Shown: positions 30,052-39,072 of the stretch, piece by piece | How positions within the stretch are numbered: position 1 is the stretch's first letter | Layout of the letters: each line of letters begins with the position of its first letter | Assembly (NCBI GenBank): GCA_003598085.1 | Contig: QZKU01000065.1 | Location: forward strand, 1 to 44,600 | Origin: Candidatus Abyssobacteria bacterium SURF_5 | Lineage (GTDB): Bacteria; Abyssobacteria; SURF-5 | Reading direction: 5' to 3' | DNA: 44,600 nt | The notes under the pieces: generated by a model | Seen by the model: only the letters and a program-made list of their open reading frames with translations | What the model was told of the DNA's origin: nothing | The model's database searches: none | Made by a program: the position numbers and the translations under genes

Positions 30052-31038
30052 TTACTCCTTAAACCTGAATACCGGTCCGAAAATTACATGACTAAGGTAA
30101 AAGAGCGCTGCAAAACCGATGGTGACGAGCAGATGAATCCAGTTAATCGCGATGACATCGGGATGAAAAGAAGGAATCACCAGAACATATTTCTCAAGCA
30201 AGAGGCCGGCAAGAACAAAACTTGATGAAATGAGCGGAATAAATCCGGTCGCTTTGGCGCGGCGTGGCATGAGAATGGTGAACGGAATGACAAACGCCAG
30301 CGCCAGCATGGTTAGCGTCACCGCTCGCCATGGGCTGCGAAAGAAAATGAGATAGACGAATTGCGTCTCTTCCGGAATGTCTCCGTACCAGATCACGATG
30401 TATTGGCTCCACAAAAGGGACATCCAGAACAGAGAAAAGGCAAACAGCAGCTTTGAAATCCTTCGCCTGTCCCCATCCGGTATGGCCGCGAAATAGCCCG
30501 CCACGCACAATCCCGCGAGTCCGAGAAAAAACGCGCTCACCGCGAAATAGGCGCCCAGCAGCGTACTGTACCAGTTGGGCTGCAGAGACATGACCAGATC
30601 AAATGCGAGATAGGTGTAAACAACCATAAAGAGTATTACAAGTGCGACCGCCCACGGAGAGGCTTGAATCGGGTCGGAAGCCTCACTTTGTTTTCCGGTC
30701 TTGTAGAGGAATATCCAACTGAAGAGAGCCAGGAGACTCAATCCCAATAATCCGCGAATCGCCAGAAACGGGATATTCAGATAGGCCGCCTTTTGGGGTA
30801 CCGGGTCAGCAACCCAGGGAAAAATGGAGACGCGCCCCAGCAGAAGGACTGCAAATAGGATGACTACCACCGGCAAAAATGCAGCAAACGAGCGCGCGAT
30901 GCCGACATACGGACGGCCCCACCTCGCATTGGTGAGATTCAAAGAGGCTGCAAAAATGACGCTGCCCTGCGCAAGGCTCGCCCAAAAGAGAAAGTTAACA
31001 AGAAAAGCCTGCCAGAACAGGTTCACATAGTCGCCCAT
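30052..31038 (-). CDS. actF: Alternative complex III subunit ActF
   Basis: 328-residue polytopic membrane protein with about ten helices, of the ActF/ActC-related quinone-side subunit family. It shows the conserved FLVNFLFWASLAQGSVIFAA start, PWAVALVILFMVVYTYLAFDLVMSLQPNWYST-like region (residues about 140-165) and WSQYIVIWYGDIPEET, which are typical of ActF. ATG 31038 lies 4 nt after the actD stop with AGAGG upstream; a TTG at 31065 would overlap actD. Last gene of the complex. In characterised ACIII it helps form the membrane domain, possibly with a proton path. Confidence 0.9.
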   Translation of the reverse strand: MGDYVNLFWQAFLVNFLFWASLAQGSVIFAASLNLTNARWGRPYVGIARSFAAFLPVVVILFAVLLLGRVSIFPWVADPVPQKAAYLNIPFLAIRGLLGLSLLALFSWIFLYKTGKQSEASDPIQASPWAVALVILFMVVYTYLAFDLVMSLQPNWYSTLLGAYFAVSAFFLGLAGLCVAGYFAAIPDGDRRRISKLLFAFSLFWMSLLWSQYIVIWYGDIPEETQFVYLIFFRSPWRAVTLTMLALAFVIPFTILMPRRAKATGFIPLISSSFVLAGLLLEKYVLVIPSFHPDVIAINWIHLLVTIGFAALFYLSHVIFGPVFRFKE

Positions 31039-31042
31039 TGCC

Positions 31043-31561
31043 CTAACCTCTTCCTTCTCCTTCAAGCAGTCTTACGTCAAGTGTCCCCTCGTTTTTCAGT
31101 GCGGAGTGGACTTTCTCGCATTGTGGCGACTCGTGCCGGACCACAAGCGCAAATTCATTCTGCGAGCATCCTGGATGATAGATGCCGCCGATGCGCGGCA
31201 GTCGCGAGGTGAACAGAAATCCTGCAAAAGTGGCCGTGGCCCCGAAAAGGATTGTCAGCTCGAATGCAATGACTACGAAGGCCGACAGGCTGACTATCGG
31301 CTTTCCGCCAACCGGAATCGGCCACGACAGCACGGTGTAAATCTGAAGCCACAGGCCGAATGCGGCGCCCGTGAGGCAGCCGATGAGCGCAAACCAGCGC
31401 ACCTGGCTCGGCCGGCGCGGCACGAGTTCCTCCATCTCGGGCAGTGGAATAGGGCTGCAGATGTCGATTATTTCCATGTTCAATGACTGGGCCGCTTGCA
31501 CGGCGCGTGCGAGTGCTTCTGCCGTTGAATAGATTGCGATGCTTTCACAACGCTCACTCAT
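31043..31561 (-). CDS. actD: Alternative complex III subunit ActD (DUF3341)
   Basis: 172-residue protein with a soluble N-terminal part of about 55 residues, two membrane helices (about 56-76 and 90-115: WFALIGCLTGAAFGLWLQIY and SLSAFVVIAFELTILFGATA), and a C-terminal domain. The block FTSRLPRIGGIYHP followed by FALVVRHE is the hallmark of DUF3341/ActD. It is a structural, cofactor-free subunit of the ACIII membrane arm. Its ATG overlaps the actC stop by 8 bp and its own stop is 4 nt from actF, so the three genes are tightly coupled. Confidence 0.92.
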   Translation of the reverse strand: MSERCESIAIYSTAEALARAVQAAQSLNMEIIDICSPIPLPEMEELVPRRPSQVRWFALIGCLTGAAFGLWLQIYTVLSWPIPVGGKPIVSLSAFVVIAFELTILFGATATFAGFLFTSRLPRIGGIYHPGCSQNEFALVVRHESPQCEKVHSALKNEGTLDVRLLEGEGRG

Positions 31562-32915
31562 GTGTTTCTCCGCCCTCTCTATGCAGTTGGCTCTTCAGCT
31601 CGCTGATGGCGACAGCAGGGAACACCTTCATCAATGAGATAAACAAGAGGAAGAACAGCCCCCAGGTACCCAACATGATGCCCCACTCGATCAACGTCGG
31701 GAAATACAATCCCCAGGCATACGGATTGTAGTCCTCGGAAAGGCTGGTGACGATGATAACGAAGCGCTCGACCCACATCCCGATGACCACGCCGATCGAA
31801 ACGATGTAGACATATCTCAGGTTCATGCGCAGGCGATGGCTGAACAGGGACAGCGGCAAAAGGCAATTGAAGAATACCATGGTCCAGAAGAGGTAACTGT
31901 ATTCGCCGAAAGCGCGATTGAAGTAGGCGTGCTGCTCATACACGTTGCCGCTGTACCATGCGATGAAGGATTCAACGAAATACGAGTACGTCACAATGAG
32001 GCTCATGAAAATGAGGATTTTTGAAAGCATGTCGAAATGGCGATGCGTGATCAGCGACTCGAGCTCATAGAATTTCCTGATCGGCAGCAGCACGATGATG
32101 ATCATCGCCACCCCCGAAAAGATCGCGCCCGCAACAAAATACGGCGCGAAAATTGTGCTGTGCCAGCCGGGGACGACCGAGACGGCAAAATCCCAACTCA
32201 CGACGCTATGCACGGAGATCACGAGCGGAGTTGCCAGCGCCGCCAATAGCAGGTAAGCCATCTCGTAGTGGTGCCACTGCCGGTATCCGCCCCGCCACCC
32301 GAGGGAGAGGATTCCGTAGATCGTCTTCTTGAGACCGGTTGACCGATCACGAACGGTCGCGACATCCGGAAGAAGCCCCAAATAGAAGAACATCATGCTG
32401 ACCAGCATGTAGGTGGTAATTGCGACGACGTCCCACAAGAGCGGGCTCTTGAAGTTCGGCCAGAGCTGCCGGTAATTCGGATACGGCAACAGATAATACG
32501 CGACCCATACACGCCCCAGGTGAATGAGAGGGTAAAGTCCCGCCGTCATGATCGCGATAACGGTCATCCCTTCAGCAATCCGGTTTATGCTCGTCCTCCA
32601 TTTCGCCAGGAACAGGAAAAGGATGGCTGAAATGAGCGTGCCGGAATGGGCGAGACCGACCCAGAAAACAAAATTTGTTATGTAGACGCCCCAGTTGACG
32701 GGGTTGTTGATGCCCGCCACCCCGATAGAAGCCAATATCTGGCGCAGATATGCGAGAAATCCGAGAGCCAGGAATAGGGACATCAGCGCCGCGAAAAGAA
32801 AAAACAGCTTGCTCGGACGCAGCATTCCGCGCAGGACGGCCTCCTCGATTCCAAGAAAGGTGCCGGCGACCGACGGCGGCTGTTTTGTCGGTTGCACGAT
32901 CCGTTCGCTTGTCAT
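31554..32915 (-). CDS. actC: Alternative complex III subunit ActC (NrfD/PsrC family)
   Basis: 453-residue polytopic quinol-oxidising membrane subunit related to NrfD and PsrC, with about ten transmembrane helices. The segment NWGVYITNFVFWVGLAHSGTLISAILFLF near residues 75-103 contains the Gly/His/Ser site typical of ActC. HSVVSWDFAVSVVPGWHSTIFAPYFVAGAIFSG (about residues 220-255) is also characteristic. It forms the site where quinol hands electrons to the ActB iron-sulfur chain. Its ATG overlaps the actB TGA (ATGA), and it overlaps actD by 8 bp. Confidence 0.94.
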   Translation of the reverse strand: MTSERIVQPTKQPPSVAGTFLGIEEAVLRGMLRPSKLFFLFAALMSLFLALGFLAYLRQILASIGVAGINNPVNWGVYITNFVFWVGLAHSGTLISAILFLFLAKWRTSINRIAEGMTVIAIMTAGLYPLIHLGRVWVAYYLLPYPNYRQLWPNFKSPLLWDVVAITTYMLVSMMFFYLGLLPDVATVRDRSTGLKKTIYGILSLGWRGGYRQWHHYEMAYLLLAALATPLVISVHSVVSWDFAVSVVPGWHSTIFAPYFVAGAIFSGVAMIIIVLLPIRKFYELESLITHRHFDMLSKILIFMSLIVTYSYFVESFIAWYSGNVYEQHAYFNRAFGEYSYLFWTMVFFNCLLPLSLFSHRLRMNLRYVYIVSIGVVIGMWVERFVIIVTSLSEDYNPYAWGLYFPTLIEWGIMLGTWGLFFLLFISLMKVFPAVAISELKSQLHREGGETHE

Positions 32916-35818
32916 CGGCCGCTTCCCTCCGTATCAGCGGAAAGAGTACCCTGGCTAACGATCTTTTTCAAATAGGTTATGGACGGCTGTGTGTTCAAGT
33001 GCTCCAAGACAACGTATCCTCGCCGATCGGCGACGTGCTTGGCAATCCAACTATCAGGATCACGAAGATCGCCGAAACGGATAGCGTGCGTGGGACAGCT
33101 CTGGGCGCAGGCGGGAACAATTTCGCCGTCGCGCAACGGGCGGTTTTCGTCCTTTGCGATCTCCTTAAGCTCGCGAATCCGCTGAATGCAGAACGTGCAT
33201 TTTTCCATTGTCCCCCGCGTCCTGACCGAAACAAATGGATTGAATTGCCTCTGAAGAGGTGGAGGATATTTATAGGTGAACCAGTTGAACCGGCGCACCT
33301 TGTACGGACAGTTGTTCGCGCAGTAACGCGTCCCCACACAGCGGTTATATATTTGTACATTGAGTCCCTCGCTGTTATGAACAGATGCGTAGACCGGGCA
33401 GACCGTTTCGCAGGGCGCATGCCCGCAATGCTGGCACAGCATCGGCTGGAAGATGGTCAGCCCTTTGTCCGCGAGCCGCTGGATGCGCAGCCAGGAAAGC
33501 TTCCGTCCTCTGAGACACTGCTCCTTGCCAACGACAAAGACATTGTTTTCCGCCTGGCACGCAACCGCGCACGCTCCACACCCGATGCACAGGTTCAGGT
33601 CGATCACCATCGCCCACTTGTGGATCGGATACGCATATTCCGGGTAGAGCTCGCCGGCTGCGTGCGGCGCCTCCTCCTTATGATTCTCTTGAAGCTCTCC
33701 CGGTTGAGTGAGGACGACCGCCTGCGCGATCTCCCGTTCCCCCTGCTCGAAAGAACCCTGTATCCGTGCGAGCGGCACTCGCTCGATCACTCCGGCGAAT
33801 TCAACCGGCGCCGCCGTCCATGCTAGCGAGCCGGCATATGGATCGATCTCTCCGCCCAAGGCATGGAACGGATTCCCTTTGGGGTATGCATGAAACGGCA
33901 TGTACTCGCCCGCGGCTCCAATAGGGAAAGCGATGACGCCATCATGAGTACCCTCCTGCAGGGCAACCGGCGCCTCGAGCGTTTTGCCGCCAACGCTCAC
34001 ACGCACAATATCGCAAGGTTTGCAGTTCCAGCGTTCCGCCATTGCCGGCGAAATGAGAAGCGGATTATCCCATGCGATCGTGGTAATCGGATCGGGAAGT
34101 TCATTCAACCACGGCTTATCCGTATGCCGCCCATCGCCGTAGCGAACGGTGGCTATCGGGATAAGGATGCTTCCTTCCGATGTCACATCGGGAGTAATGC
34201 CGTTGAGGGTGGCGGCCGCGTCTTCCAACAGCGTCACCGCGCGCTCATCGGCGGGCAACCAGATGCCGCCCTGCTCGAGCGCGGTTTTCCAAAACGCATC
34301 GAAACTCTGATCGGGCGCCGTTTTTTTCCGAACCTCCTGCCATCGAGTCTGAACGAAGTCCACGTAATTGAAAGAGGGCTTGCCCTTACCGCTCAAAGTT
34401 TGTACGAGATCTGCCAACACCTGACCCGCATGCAGGGAATCCGTAAACGGTTGGATGATTGGTTGGCGCACACAATTTATTCCCGTTCTCGGCTCCACGA
34501 GGTCCCAGGTCTCGATCCAGTGAAGGATCGGAAGGATCAGGTCGTAGTCGGAAGAGGACTCTTCAATTACCGTCGCCAGCTTTATCTTGAGGGGTACATT
34601 GGCCAAAGCCGTTCGCAATCGGTCGGGGTCGGCAAACGCGAATTCCAGGCTCGTATCATGGACGATAAGGGCGCCAACTTCGCCCTTCTCCATTTCCTCA
34701 ACCGTTTTCAGCATGTCCCGGTATGAACCGACCGGAGAATGTTCATATCGATTAAAGGAAACGGTTTTCCCATAATTTCCGGCGGCATAGTTTATGAGAT
34801 TCACGAGTACCTGCAGTGCAGTTGCGTGAGTCGTTCGCGAGGTCGGGCCGCCGGCGAGCACGAGGCTGGGTTTTCGAGAACGTAATAGAACAGCGACGTT
34901 TCGAATTGTCTTCGCTGGGAGCCCGGTCGCTTTGGAGGCTTTCTCCACGGAGAAAGGCTCCAGAGCATCACGCCACTTCTGCAGTTCCGGGCGTTCGGTA
35001 ATGGCATCGGATATTACTTCTGCCGCAATCGCGCCGACAAGCGCCAAATCGGTTCCCGGAGGAATGGAAAAACGTTCGTCTGCGTTAGCGCCGGTCAATG
35101 ACCAGTGCGATTCAAATTGGATGAATCTGCTCTTTGAAGGATCAGTCACGCTGCGAGTTGCCGCGAATCCATGCGCACAACTGACGGGCGAAAGCCACGT
35201 CTCCAGAAAATCGGCGCCAAACGAGAGAATGAGACGGGCGTGTTCAAACTGATAAATCGGAATGCCTTTGATTCCGAAAGAAAGGTTATTCGCGGCGGAA
35301 ACGAAAGGATATTCGAGCGCTTCAAATATCAAGTGCTCGAGTTCCGGCGCATCCGATGTCAAGTCTTGAAGCAGAGTCTGCATCGCGCCCGTCACGTGCC
35401 TGCCGACGATGACGATCTTGCCCTCTTTCGGTGAAGTCCCTGCAACTTCCAGTGCCGCCTGCCAGGTGAGAGCCTCGAGTTCGCCCGATTCGGTCCTGCG
35501 CAGAGGTGATTGCACCCTTCGCGGGCTGTATAAGCCTTGCAACGCTGACTGCCCGCGTGCGCACAGGCCTCCATGATTGACGGGATGCTGCGCGTTCCCT
35601 TCGATTTTCGTGGCGTTCGAATTTATGAGTCGGACCCGCACTCCGCATCCCGCGGGACATTCATTGCAGGTTGAGCTGCGCCAGTACGAGACCCCGGGAA
35701 TCAGTTCTTCCACCGGTATGAGATGCTTGAGCAGGAGCGCGGCTCCTGACCGGCCGGTCGGAACGACTGTTGCCGCGCCGGCAAGGGCCGTAGCTTTCAG
35801 AAATTCCCTTCGGTTCAT
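32912..35818 (-). CDS. actB: Alternative complex III subunit ActB (molybdopterin-oxidoreductase-like plus Fe-S domains)
   Basis: 968-residue exported iron-sulfur subunit. It starts with a Tat signal (NRREFLKATALAGAAT). The B1 domain (to about 690) has the fold of a molybdopterin oxidoreductase and the ActB block GADFLETWLSPV. It also carries C51-x2-C54-x3-C58-x27-C86, a four-cysteine cluster site that characterised ActB proteins do not use. The B2 domain (about 735-920) is ferredoxin-like, with CIGCGACAVACQ, CQHCGHAPCETVCP, CVGTRYCANNCPYKVRRF, CTFCIQRI and CAQSCPTHAI, holding a chain of four clusters. It carries electrons from ActC to ActA. ATG 35818; its TGA overlaps actC. Polysulfide-reductase-like complexes are the main alternative, but the neighbours fit ACIII. 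Confidence 0.92.
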   Translation of the reverse strand: MNRREFLKATALAGAATVVPTGRSGAALLLKHLIPVEELIPGVSYWRSSTCNECPAGCGVRVRLINSNATKIEGNAQHPVNHGGLCARGQSALQGLYSPRRVQSPLRRTESGELEALTWQAALEVAGTSPKEGKIVIVGRHVTGAMQTLLQDLTSDAPELEHLIFEALEYPFVSAANNLSFGIKGIPIYQFEHARLILSFGADFLETWLSPVSCAHGFAATRSVTDPSKSRFIQFESHWSLTGANADERFSIPPGTDLALVGAIAAEVISDAITERPELQKWRDALEPFSVEKASKATGLPAKTIRNVAVLLRSRKPSLVLAGGPTSRTTHATALQVLVNLINYAAGNYGKTVSFNRYEHSPVGSYRDMLKTVEEMEKGEVGALIVHDTSLEFAFADPDRLRTALANVPLKIKLATVIEESSSDYDLILPILHWIETWDLVEPRTGINCVRQPIIQPFTDSLHAGQVLADLVQTLSGKGKPSFNYVDFVQTRWQEVRKKTAPDQSFDAFWKTALEQGGIWLPADERAVTLLEDAAATLNGITPDVTSEGSILIPIATVRYGDGRHTDKPWLNELPDPITTIAWDNPLLISPAMAERWNCKPCDIVRVSVGGKTLEAPVALQEGTHDGVIAFPIGAAGEYMPFHAYPKGNPFHALGGEIDPYAGSLAWTAAPVEFAGVIERVPLARIQGSFEQGEREIAQAVVLTQPGELQENHKEEAPHAAGELYPEYAYPIHKWAMVIDLNLCIGCGACAVACQAENNVFVVGKEQCLRGRKLSWLRIQRLADKGLTIFQPMLCQHCGHAPCETVCPVYASVHNSEGLNVQIYNRCVGTRYCANNCPYKVRRFNWFTYKYPPPLQRQFNPFVSVRTRGTMEKCTFCIQRIRELKEIAKDENRPLRDGEIVPACAQSCPTHAIRFGDLRDPDSWIAKHVADRRGYVVLEHLNTQPSITYLKKIVSQGTLSADTEGSGR

Positions 35819-35836
35819 CGTTTCGTCACCCTGTTT

Positions 35837-36379
35837 CTATTGATGACAGGTGTTGCATTCGATGGGCGCGCCTCTGCGCCGGTGACAATTCACGCACCAG
35901 CCCATCCCCATGTCGGAAACCTTCTGTACCGTGCTCATCAGTTCCACCGCCCCGTGACACTCCTGGCACCTGACTCCGGAAAGTACGTGGCGCTTATGCG
36001 AGAAGTAGACCCAATCCTGAAAATCGTAGATGCGCACCCAATCAATTGGTTCGCCTGTCTGATGGAATGCGGTGAGCTTGATGATCTCAGGCCGATCGGT
36101 TGCGACCGATTCGTGGCATTCCATGCACAATGCCGTGTTCGGAATACCGGCGTGAATCGATTTATCGGCATATCGATGACAATCGCCGCACTCCATTCCA
36201 ACGCGCTGCACGTGCACGTGATGCGGGAACTCGATGGGTTGTTCCGGATGCAGACTCGGCCGCCGGATCGCGAGTCCGAACAACAGGACCAGTGCCGCCA
36301 CAGCACCGAACCATCCCATGATGAGAAGAGCGAAGATATGGAAACTCTTCACGTCTTTCAAACGGTCGATCAGTCGCAA
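35837..36379 (-). CDS. actA: Alternative complex III subunit ActA, pentaheme cytochrome c
   Basis: 180-residue membrane-anchored cytochrome with an N-terminal helix (about residues 13-35, FHIFALLIMGWFGAVAALVL). Five CxxCH heme-binding motifs follow: CGDCH, CMECH, CQECH, CVNCH and CNTCH, the last three residues from the end. Five hemes is the count known for ActA of Rhodothermus and Flavobacterium ACIII. It takes electrons from ActB and passes them to a cytochrome c or oxidase. TTG 36379 is used because AAGGA lies upstream and an in-frame TAA stops any earlier reading; the ATG nearby is in another frame. It stands between the two CydA-like genes and actB. Confidence 0.94.
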   Translation of the reverse strand: MRLIDRLKDVKSFHIFALLIMGWFGAVAALVLLFGLAIRRPSLHPEQPIEFPHHVHVQRVGMECGDCHRYADKSIHAGIPNTALCMECHESVATDRPEIIKLTAFHQTGEPIDWVRIYDFQDWVYFSHKRHVLSGVRCQECHGAVELMSTVQKVSDMGMGWCVNCHRRRGAPIECNTCHQ

Positions 36380-36421
36380 AAAGGACCATCCTTATCTCGG
36401 TGCTCATTCATGACGTTCAAA

Positions 36422-37768
36422 TTAGCGGGGCGTCTGTCCCGGCTGTTGCGCCTGCTGGGATTCATCCGTCTCTTGCCCCTGTTTCCACTCTTCATTCAGG
36501 ACATACTCCGTAATCGCTTCGGTCTGCTCTTGCGTAACAGGCAATTTGGGCATTCGCGGCAGTTCCGGGTTCACCTTCACCGGGTTCAGAACGAATTGCG
36601 ACATTTCGTCCGGGTTCCCTTTATATTTCTCAACCATGTAGGTCAGCGGCGGGCCTACCGTGACCTGTTCCTGCGAGTGGCAGCTTGCGCAGAATCGATT
36701 AAACAGAGCTTGTCCGCTCGGCGCTCTGGCCGCTGCGCCTTCCTCTTCCGGCGGGGTGTATGTCTCAAGGAACTCCTCGACCGACGCGAAATAGAGCTCC
36801 GTATTCTGTTTCGCAATCTGATCCGGCCCGCGCAACAGGTTCAAGCGGACCGTGTCCCGAATGAAGCTCATCACAACGGCGACCGAGCCGATCGCAACCA
36901 GCGCAATCGCCATTTTCTTAACGGAGAATTCTTGAATTGCCGAAATCACGGCGACGGCGCCCACGGTCACGAGAGCAATCCCCACAAGCACGAGGATCAG
37001 GAGGGACGTGGAATAAAAACCGCGCGGCATCGTAAACAGATTCAACGGACCAAATACCCCTTGCAGGAGCGTCGCGATGAGAGCCCATCGCAGGCCGAGG
37101 TTGCGCGCGCGGGGATAGAAGGGATCGTCCGACTTTCGCCCGACGTACCAGAAATATGCGGCGGTGAAGAAACCGATGTTCGCAAAATCGGCCACGAAAA
37201 AATGCAGATAGCGCGGTAGTACGTTCGGCAGCAGCAGCGACCGAAAGAATCCCGTATACTCGTGCCATTGGAACGGCAGCAGCATCAGGTTGATGTTGGC
37301 CAGAAAGATCAGCGGAACAAATGTGAAGATGCCTGCGGCGGCGGCGCCGATACAGATGTGAATGATCGGGCGCCTCTTGCTCAAATCGTCCCAGGTGTAC
37401 TTGTACGCGTACAGGAGAAGGAAGGCGAGGATCACCAGCCACACGATGGAAAGGAAATAGGGGTAGGTCAGTTGGATGACCGAGTACCAGTAAATGGTGA
37501 AGATCAGGCTGATCACCAGCAGCGGAGCGACTCCGATGACAACCGCCATGCTTTTGTTTATGGTGACCGTGTCGAGTATCTCCTTCGCGAAGCGCAGCGA
37601 GAACTGATCTTTGAATCCAAGAATTCGATAGATGACACTGAAATACGTGCCGCCGACCATCAGCCCGACAAAAAATATGTGCAGAATGAAGGTCAGTACC
37701 AGCAGCACGCGCAGAAAAGTCGGCCCGCCGGGCAAATCCAACGGTATCTCTATCGGGATGTTGGTCAT
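36422..37768 (-). CDS. CydA-like membrane protein with C-terminal cytochrome c domain (second of a pair)
   Basis: 448-residue protein with about nine membrane helices and a C-terminal class I cytochrome c domain (about 345-435) with heme motif CASCH (C360, C363, H364) and a likely Met ligand in PRMPKLP. The membrane part resembles subunit I of the cytochrome bd superfamily: H30 in FILHIFFVGLMVGG aligns with the b595 ligand His19 of E. coli CydA, and H189 in LPRYLHFFVADF aligns with b558 ligand His186. The Glu pair near E. coli 99/107 is absent. Its ATG overlaps the stop of the sister gene (ATGA), so both are made together. Predicted partner of the upstream CydA-like protein in a bd-like complex fed by ACIII; function inferred, not shown. 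Confidence 0.7.
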   Translation of the reverse strand: MTNIPIEIPLDLPGGPTFLRVLLVLTFILHIFFVGLMVGGTYFSVIYRILGFKDQFSLRFAKEILDTVTINKSMAVVIGVAPLLVISLIFTIYWYSVIQLTYPYFLSIVWLVILAFLLLYAYKYTWDDLSKRRPIIHICIGAAAAGIFTFVPLIFLANINLMLLPFQWHEYTGFFRSLLLPNVLPRYLHFFVADFANIGFFTAAYFWYVGRKSDDPFYPRARNLGLRWALIATLLQGVFGPLNLFTMPRGFYSTSLLILVLVGIALVTVGAVAVISAIQEFSVKKMAIALVAIGSVAVVMSFIRDTVRLNLLRGPDQIAKQNTELYFASVEEFLETYTPPEEEGAAARAPSGQALFNRFCASCHSQEQVTVGPPLTYMVEKYKGNPDEMSQFVLNPVKVNPELPRMPKLPVTQEQTEAITEYVLNEEWKQGQETDESQQAQQPGQTPR

Positions 37769-39072
37769 CCGCCGCCTATCCCTTCGGCCAAAAATTCGGC
37801 CAACGCCTCCTTCTCGTCCTGCGTTCCGATGAACGGAGGCATGTACGGGTACGTGAACTGCATATTGTCAAGGAATTGAATGGCCGCTTCTTTAGTGCCG
37901 ATGATGGGGCCCTTATTGAAGATGCCGTTCATTCCGCGATAGGTGTGGCAAACGGAACATTCGATTATAAAAACCGCATGCCCTTTGGACGCCGGCGCTC
38001 CTCTGGGACCGGCTTGCTTTTGGGCCCACGTGTAATACTTCAAGACCCCCGTGCTCGAGAGATACGGCGCCTCACGCTTCCGGATGCCGTTGCTGTACAT
38101 GTACTCCTCAATGACATATGGTTTTCGCGAGAATTCGCGCACGCGTTCGAATTGGGCTGTCCCAATGGTCAGCAGGATGAAAGGGGCAACCGACAAGACG
38201 CCATAGCTGCGCCGCGTCGCGAACAGAATCAGGCCGGTCAGGAAGAGGAACCCTGCCACGAAAAGGAAAAATATCTGGCTGAAGGAAGCGTATTGCGTGA
38301 GGCGCAGCGTCATCAGGGCCACCGGCATGAATTGCGACGCGCGTTCGGGCAGCACCTGATAGTAGGCGAACGTGGCGAAGAGGTAAACCGGCGTTACGAA
38401 CAGCAGGTACCTCCCGCAAAACCGCAGAAACTCGCCGCGAATGTCCCGGAATCTGTGTCGCATGAACGAAAAAATGAGCAGGTTGAACGCGCATGCCAGC
38501 ATCGCCGCCAGCGCCATCCGGCTGAATGACTGCGGGAGATATGTCACGTTGAAGAAAGCAGGCCAGAACGAGCGCGTCTCCAGCCATTTCCCCGGCGTCA
38601 TCTGGAAACCTAATATTCCAACGATCGCAAACAGCGTCATCAATGATACGAGAATATAGGCCACACCGACGCGCAGGTGCTTTTCCGGCTTCATCACGCG
38701 CCACGTCAGATAATATATCGATACCAGCGACAGTTCCGCTACAAAAACGCCCCACTCGATAAACCAGACCCAGAAGAACAGGCGCAGAAGCGAGCCGATG
38801 CCGACCGGCGAAAAAATCTGCGTGCTGAACCAGATGCCGACTCCCGTGAGGGCGCCCACGGCCGTTGTCAAAATGAAAAACCAGCGCGCCATGTGGTACG
38901 CAGCTTCGTTCAACATCTGGTTCTTTTCGCGGATGGATTTGTATTCGAGTAAAACGATGAAAAGAGAGCCGCCCACCGCCATTCCATGGCTGACGAGGAC
39001 GTGTACGATGCCGATTATCGCGATCACCATCCGGTCGCCCAGAACGGGAAACAAAACGGCGGGGAAATTCAT
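37765..39072 (-). CDS. CydA-like membrane protein with C-terminal cytochrome c domain (first of a pair)
   Basis: 435-residue protein, first gene of the operon, with about nine membrane helices and a C-terminal monoheme domain (CSVCH: C372, C375, H376; possible Met ligand in YPYMPPF). The membrane part aligns with CydA: H24 in IVHVLVSHGMAVGG matches heme b595 ligand His19; E106 and E113 in WFIEWGVFVAELS match the Glu107 region; QMTPGKW and FFNVTYLPQSF match CydA wording. At the position of b558 ligand His186 it has Arg (SFSRMALAA). The quinol-binding loop of CydA is not recognisable, which fits electron supply by cytochrome c. GAGGA stands before ATG 39072, and a TATAAT (39091-39096 on the minus strand) with a weak -35 is upstream. 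Confidence 0.7.
   Translation of the reverse strand: MNFPAVLFPVLGDRMVIAIIGIVHVLVSHGMAVGGSLFIVLLEYKSIREKNQMLNEAAYHMARWFFILTTAVGALTGVGIWFSTQIFSPVGIGSLLRLFFWVWFIEWGVFVAELSLVSIYYLTWRVMKPEKHLRVGVAYILVSLMTLFAIVGILGFQMTPGKWLETRSFWPAFFNVTYLPQSFSRMALAAMLACAFNLLIFSFMRHRFRDIRGEFLRFCGRYLLFVTPVYLFATFAYYQVLPERASQFMPVALMTLRLTQYASFSQIFFLFVAGFLFLTGLILFATRRSYGVLSVAPFILLTIGTAQFERVREFSRKPYVIEEYMYSNGIRKREAPYLSSTGVLKYYTWAQKQAGPRGAPASKGHAVFIIECSVCHTYRGMNGIFNKGPIIGTKEAAIQFLDNMQFTYPYMPPFIGTQDEKEALAEFLAEGIGGG

Follow-up and report, generated by a model that had tools for sequence, protein, structure and literature searches.

Background

The OR-C family of the cytochrome bd superfamily, said to have been described by Murali, Gennis and Hemp in 2021, reportedly consists of CydA homologues that carry a C-terminal c-type cytochrome and have no quinol site. 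In Flavobacterium johnsoniae, an alternative complex III (ACIII; structure 6btm) is found with a heme-copper oxidase. In CydA of Escherichia coli, heme d has two ligands, one of which is His19. The other is Glu99; heme b595 is ligated by Glu445, and the ligands of heme b558 are His186 and Met393 (PMC6853902). Pairs of two CydA homologues (CydAA') have been proposed to receive their electrons from cytochrome c: the OR-N5 CydAA' is encoded directly downstream of ACIII in Nitrospirales (PMC12342949, PMC10839748), and the OR-N1 and OR-N2 CydAA' are known from Nitrospinota (PMC10839748). One CydA homologue of cable bacteria has been noted to carry a cytochrome c domain in the periplasm (PMC13047784).

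The window analysed here, a stretch of 44,600 nucleotides from Candidatus Abyssobacteria bacterium SURF_5 (contig QZKU01000065.1), encodes two neighbouring homologues of CydA, which we call P2 and P1 (Table 1). An earlier note, based on an alignment by eye, had proposed that the heme ligands of a bd-type centre are divided between the two proteins, and that these form an obligate heterodimer with one intact active site and one electron-entry heme, in place of CydA-CydB.

Table 1. The seven genes of the operon, with the residues of P2 and P1 that are discussed in the text (positions are those of the window)
Feature	Position	Strand	Description
P2	37765..39072	minus	435 aa CydA homologue of the catalytic type; 8 predicted TM helices and a C-terminal class I cytochrome c
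P2, residues			CSVCH and M411 (cytochrome c); H24, E106, E113, E313 and R316 (putative di-heme site); invariant R185 at the place of the b558 His
P1	36422..37768	minus	448 aa second CydA homologue; 8 predicted TM helices and a C-terminal cytochrome c (CASCH)
P1, residues			conserved H30, R186, H189, M300 and R304; no Glu at the E99 and E107 places; D305 at the E445 place
ActA-like pentaheme cytochrome c	35837..36379	minus	5 CxxCH in the sequence; QrcA/class III cytochrome-like
ActB-like protein	32912..35818	minus	Tat signal; molybdopterin-oxidoreductase-like domain fused to a 4Fe-4S domain (QrcB+QrcC-like)
ActC-like protein	31554..32915	minus	NrfD-family integral membrane protein
ActD	31043..31561	minus	PF11821, E=2e-40
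ActF-like protein	30052..31065	minus	NrfD-family integral membrane protein

The gene pair and its operon

Two reading frames occupy exactly the span given in the earlier note (36422-39072). The P2 reading frame is transcribed before that of P1 and overlaps it by 4 bp, and the two genes head a seven-gene operon that extends down to position 30052. The remainder of this operon has the composition by which an ACIII is recognised: a multiheme ActA, ActB, two NrfD-family proteins (matches with E=3.8e-26 and 5.5e-10) and ActD are all encoded together. Neither ActE nor ActG was seen in the operon (30052-39072), and the c-type domains of P1 and P2 may replace ActE. All seven genes are present in unchanged order in the two nearest genomes, Candidatus Abyssobacteria SURF_17 and a MAG from groundwater that is labelled Poribacteria. 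The pair has ACIII genes beside it in seven loci (L013, L014, L024, L025, L029, L041 and L087) and partly in an eighth (L073).

The family is large, with at least 490 confirmed matches from many phyla, and is common in aerobes, for example in Bacillus, Paenibacillus, Myroides and Methylobacter. P2 and P1 are adjacent and on one strand in 113 of the 118 loci, usually with the 4 bp overlap; four of the five non-adjacent cases sit at contig or locus ends, leaving one real exception (L018). The usual gene order is P2-P1, and it is reversed in loci of the Desulfobulbales type, where P1 precedes P2. Some P2 homologues are much longer (about 880 aa) and have eight CxxCH motifs in an octaheme extension (L074, L077, L079, L082, L090, L097, L098, L101, L016 and others); the octaheme P2 and the reversed order in the Desulfobulbales-type loci suggest a different electron donor. 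In one further variant (L087:10001-13729) P2 is duplicated in tandem and a single P1 comes after it, all lying immediately downstream of a complete set of ACIII genes.

Family searches of the source genome, which is 98.5% complete, found no COX1, no CydB (PF02322) and no canonical CydA; a bc-type cytochrome b is present. Since all three are missing, the P2/P1 pair is the only O2 reductase of this genome that the searches could recognise. The published description of SURF_17 (as Candidatus Abyssubacteria SURF_17) reports no cytochrome c oxidase, assigns the host group to the subsurface and considers it probably anaerobic; a qNOR was reported in the same genome (PMC6121073). SURF_17 (L022) carries the P2/P1-ACIII operon despite this reported absence.

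Both proteins are homologues of CydA

The Pfam and NCBIfam models recognise the pair poorly: P1 scores below the cut-off of the Pfam CydA model and P2 has no match to it. Profile-profile comparison of the two families with CydA is clear by comparison, with E=3.7e-18 for P2 and E=8e-12 for P1, and the transmembrane parts of P1 and P2 alone align to each other with E=1.1e-18. The CydB profile has no significant match to either protein. AlphaFold models built from alignments of 67-69 homologues have pLDDT values of 89.7 (P1) and 92.8 (P2), and their best structural matches in the PDB are CydA chains of bd oxidases (E=2.6e-5 for the P1 model and E=1.4e-6 for the P2 model), with CydB chains matching more weakly. 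P1 is therefore not a diverged CydB: it lacks a significant CydB profile match and is structurally closer to CydA. When PDB sequences were searched, both the P2 sequence and the P2 profile found 5doq, the CydA of G. thermodenitrificans, and neither P1 nor its family matched any bd oxidase. The PDB copy that was searched holds no solved structure of any member of the pair family, and the papers that were found report no assay of a member.

The models give P1 a TM6-TM7 loop of about 8 residues and P2 one of about 20, too short for a Q-loop in either protein. Together with the ligands described below, P2 has the features that define a member of the bd superfamily, namely the CydA fold, the ligand places of His19, Glu99 and Glu445 and the proton residue Glu107. 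The pair has none of the features of a quinol-oxidising CydAB, which are a catalytic subunit with His186 and Met393, a Q-loop and a CydB partner. It does have those of the OR-C and OR-N groups: no quinol site, a c-type heme domain, as is often found there, and a second CydA as partner. That two CydA homologues are encoded together in the place of CydA-CydB, as the earlier note had it, agrees with the adjacency of the two genes across loci, with the lack of CydB profile matches and with the absence of CydB from the genome.

P2 has all tested ligands of the putative oxygen site

Profile-profile alignment with E. coli CydA as reference places H24 of P2 on His19, E106 on Glu99 and E113 on Glu107, and the by-eye alignment of these residues is upheld. 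When the P2 family profile was aligned independently to 5doq, R185 fell on the b558 His, in agreement with the Arg previously noticed at this position, and E313 on the Glu of ExGRQPW. E313, R316 and P318 correspond to E445, R448 and P450 of CydA, the ExxRKP motif of P2 being aligned with E445-xx-R448-QP. These positions are nearly invariant in the extended set of 120 P2 homologues: H24 is present in 119/119, E106 in 119/120, E113 and R185 both in 120/120, E313 in 118/119 and R316 in 119/119, and the CxxCH and M411 of the cytochrome c domain are found in 119/119. A reversion of Arg185 to His was seen in none of the 120 sequences, and P2 has no conserved Met at the place of Met393.

E313, the equivalent of Glu445, had been missed in the alignment by eye. 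Because it is also kept, the two-heme oxygen site of P2 is whole and not divided: as judged from the alignments, all tested ligands of the high-spin hemes (H24, E106 and E313) lie in P2. The earlier interpretation is thus supported in part, but not as regards a division of the active site between the two subunits.

P1 has a candidate site for a b-type heme

In the alignment of the P1 family to CydA, H30 lies on His19 and H189 on His186, and no Glu is found opposite Glu99 or Glu107. H30 is present in 113/113 homologues of the extended set (114 sequences), R186 in 113/114 and H189 in 101/114; a Glu in the Glu99/Glu107 region occurs in none of the first 86 homologues that were scored. D305 occupies the place of Glu445, an assignment that comes from the P1-P2 family alignments only. 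The P1 residues reported in the earlier note are thus the right ones. The complementary pattern is conserved throughout the family (120 P2 and 114 P1 homologues), which excludes chance, and none of the homologues examined has the full ligand set in one protein.

The Met393 place is without a conserved Met in P1. A conserved Met, M300, does occur in its last helix, and M300 and H189 are jointly retained or jointly lost in 109 of the 112 scorable homologues (both in 98, neither in 11, one only in 3). This is the strongest association among 210 column pairs; it reflects about five independent changes, and a tree-based sign test is not significant. The H189/M300 pair is kept in about 88% of P1 homologues, from many phyla, and absent in about 10%. 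From these patterns, M300 and H189 are candidate His/Met ligands of a low-spin heme in P1. In some P1 lineages whose P2 ligands are intact, these two sites are occupied by E/Y, M/N, L/N, L/T, I/N or W/K. In P1 proteins of the Sediminibacterium/Chitinophaga/Sphingobacterium type (L037, L047 and L061) H189 and M300 are replaced by Glu and Tyr and P2 is intact; these three loci are a natural test of the need for a b-type heme in P1. As both residues are lost in clades with an intact P2, a P1 heme is not the obligatory point of electron entry across the family. A c-type heme motif is found on P1 in 33 of 86 homologues and on every complete P2 (119/119), and the c-heme of P2 would be the simplest entry point; the c-type domains of both proteins offer a more direct route for electrons than a b-type heme in P1.

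Two further readings concern the role of P1. An obligate heterodimer, in which P1 supplies a b558-like entry heme to the active site of P2, is favoured by the alignment of H189 with His186, by the presence of H189 in 101/114 homologues and by its shared retention or loss with M300. It does not fit easily with the missing Met393, with the replacement of both sites in lineages whose P2 ligands are intact, or with the c-heme that every P2 already has; moreover, by analogy with the pseudo-two-fold symmetry of CydA and CydB, a heme at H189 would be expected in the opposite subunit and not at 10-15 A from the P2 hemes, and the canonical triangle of hemes would not be restored. We consider this reading unlikely, and the electron-entry heme of P1 in the form originally proposed is only possible. 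Alternatively, P1 may be a structural partner free of heme b, much like CydB, with H189 and H30 as relics and electrons passing solely from the c-heme to the di-heme site of P2. The lack of equivalents to Glu99, Glu107 and Glu445, the joint losses of H189 and M300 and the patchy occurrence of the c-heme on P1 are all in line with this; yet an H30 without exception and an H189 and M300 at around 88% across many phyla are more conservation than relics would be expected to show, and we rather doubt that P1 is heme-b-free.

A probable cytochrome c-fed oxygen reductase with a proposed link to ACIII

We think it quite probable that P2 and P1 are the two subunits of an O2 reductase fed by cytochrome c, a heterodimer that belongs to the bd superfamily and there to the non-quinol branch (OR-C/OR-N-like), with P2 as the catalytic subunit and P1 in the place of CydB. 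This proposal builds on sequence homology, predicted fold, residue conservation, gene pairing and operon context, from which heme occupancy, electron route, O2 as substrate and the physical complex are deduced. In such an enzyme, ACIII (ActABCDF) would oxidise quinol, and the electrons would travel by way of ActB and the pentaheme ActA, reach the c-hemes of P1 and P2, which would stand in for the missing ActE, and continue to the di-heme site of P2. P2 would hold two high-spin hemes, one ligated by H24 and E106 and the other by E313, and its catalytic centre would be fed by its own C-terminal c-heme; O2 would be reduced at this di-heme site, with protons arriving via the E113 region. P1 would fill the place of CydB and contribute a second c-heme and, in most of the family, probably one low-spin b-heme at H189/M300. 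Less likely than not is a stronger version, in which function is split: one CydA paralogue would house the di-heme O2 site and the other a low-spin b-heme that has been relocated to a new His/Met pair (TM5 H189/TM8 M300), both wired by c-hemes to ACIII as a supercomplex from quinol to O2. If true, this supercomplex would replace bc1 and heme-copper oxidase in lineages that are thought to have no terminal oxidase.

The substrate could also be NO, or the pair could serve in the detoxification of O2. An ACIII-linked activity other than that of an oxidase (NO reduction, reverse electron flow or, in an anaerobe, the scavenging of peroxide or O2) would suit a host group that lives in the subsurface, is probably anaerobic and has no cytochrome c oxidase (PMC6121073), and reverse electron transport has been put forward as a role of the bd-like proteins in Nitrospina (PMC3578206). 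We regard such an activity as improbable, given that the set of residues that is important for the O2 chemistry of bd oxidases (Glu99, Glu107, Glu445 and His19) is nearly invariant in P2 and that the family is common in aerobes.

Comparison with known systems

P2/P1 is most likely an O2 reductase that is fed by cytochrome c and belongs to the already proposed OR-C/OR-N branch. What is added here is a full audit of the ligands, the H189-M300 pair, and a candidate for an overlooked oxidase from a lineage whose description reports no cytochrome c oxidase; as carriers such as SURF_17 have been described in this way, their respiration may have gone unnoticed. For mutagenesis, the conserved ligands are direct targets.

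With CydAB (E. coli 6rx4/6rko, G. thermodenitrificans 5doq) the pair shares the CydA fold, and P2 keeps the His19/Glu99/Glu107/Glu445 set; unlike in CydAB, the His186/Met393 site for b558 is absent from P2, and the pair has neither a Q-loop nor a CydB but instead cytochrome c domains and another homologue of CydA. P2 resembles the reported OR-C family in that it is homologous to CydA, has a c-type cytochrome at its C-terminus and is without a quinol site. The OR-N5 CydAA' of Nitrospirales is, by its description, likewise a pair of CydA homologues beside ACIII and a proposed cytochrome c-fed O2 reductase; in contrast to the OR-N CydAA', both subunits have c-type heme domains here and the ACIII is without ActE. 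Finally, the predicted coupling of ACIII to a terminal oxidase via cytochrome c domains is as in ACIII-linked cytochrome oxidases, but where the ACIII system of F. johnsoniae has a heme-copper oxidase as its partner, the partner here is a pair from the bd superfamily.
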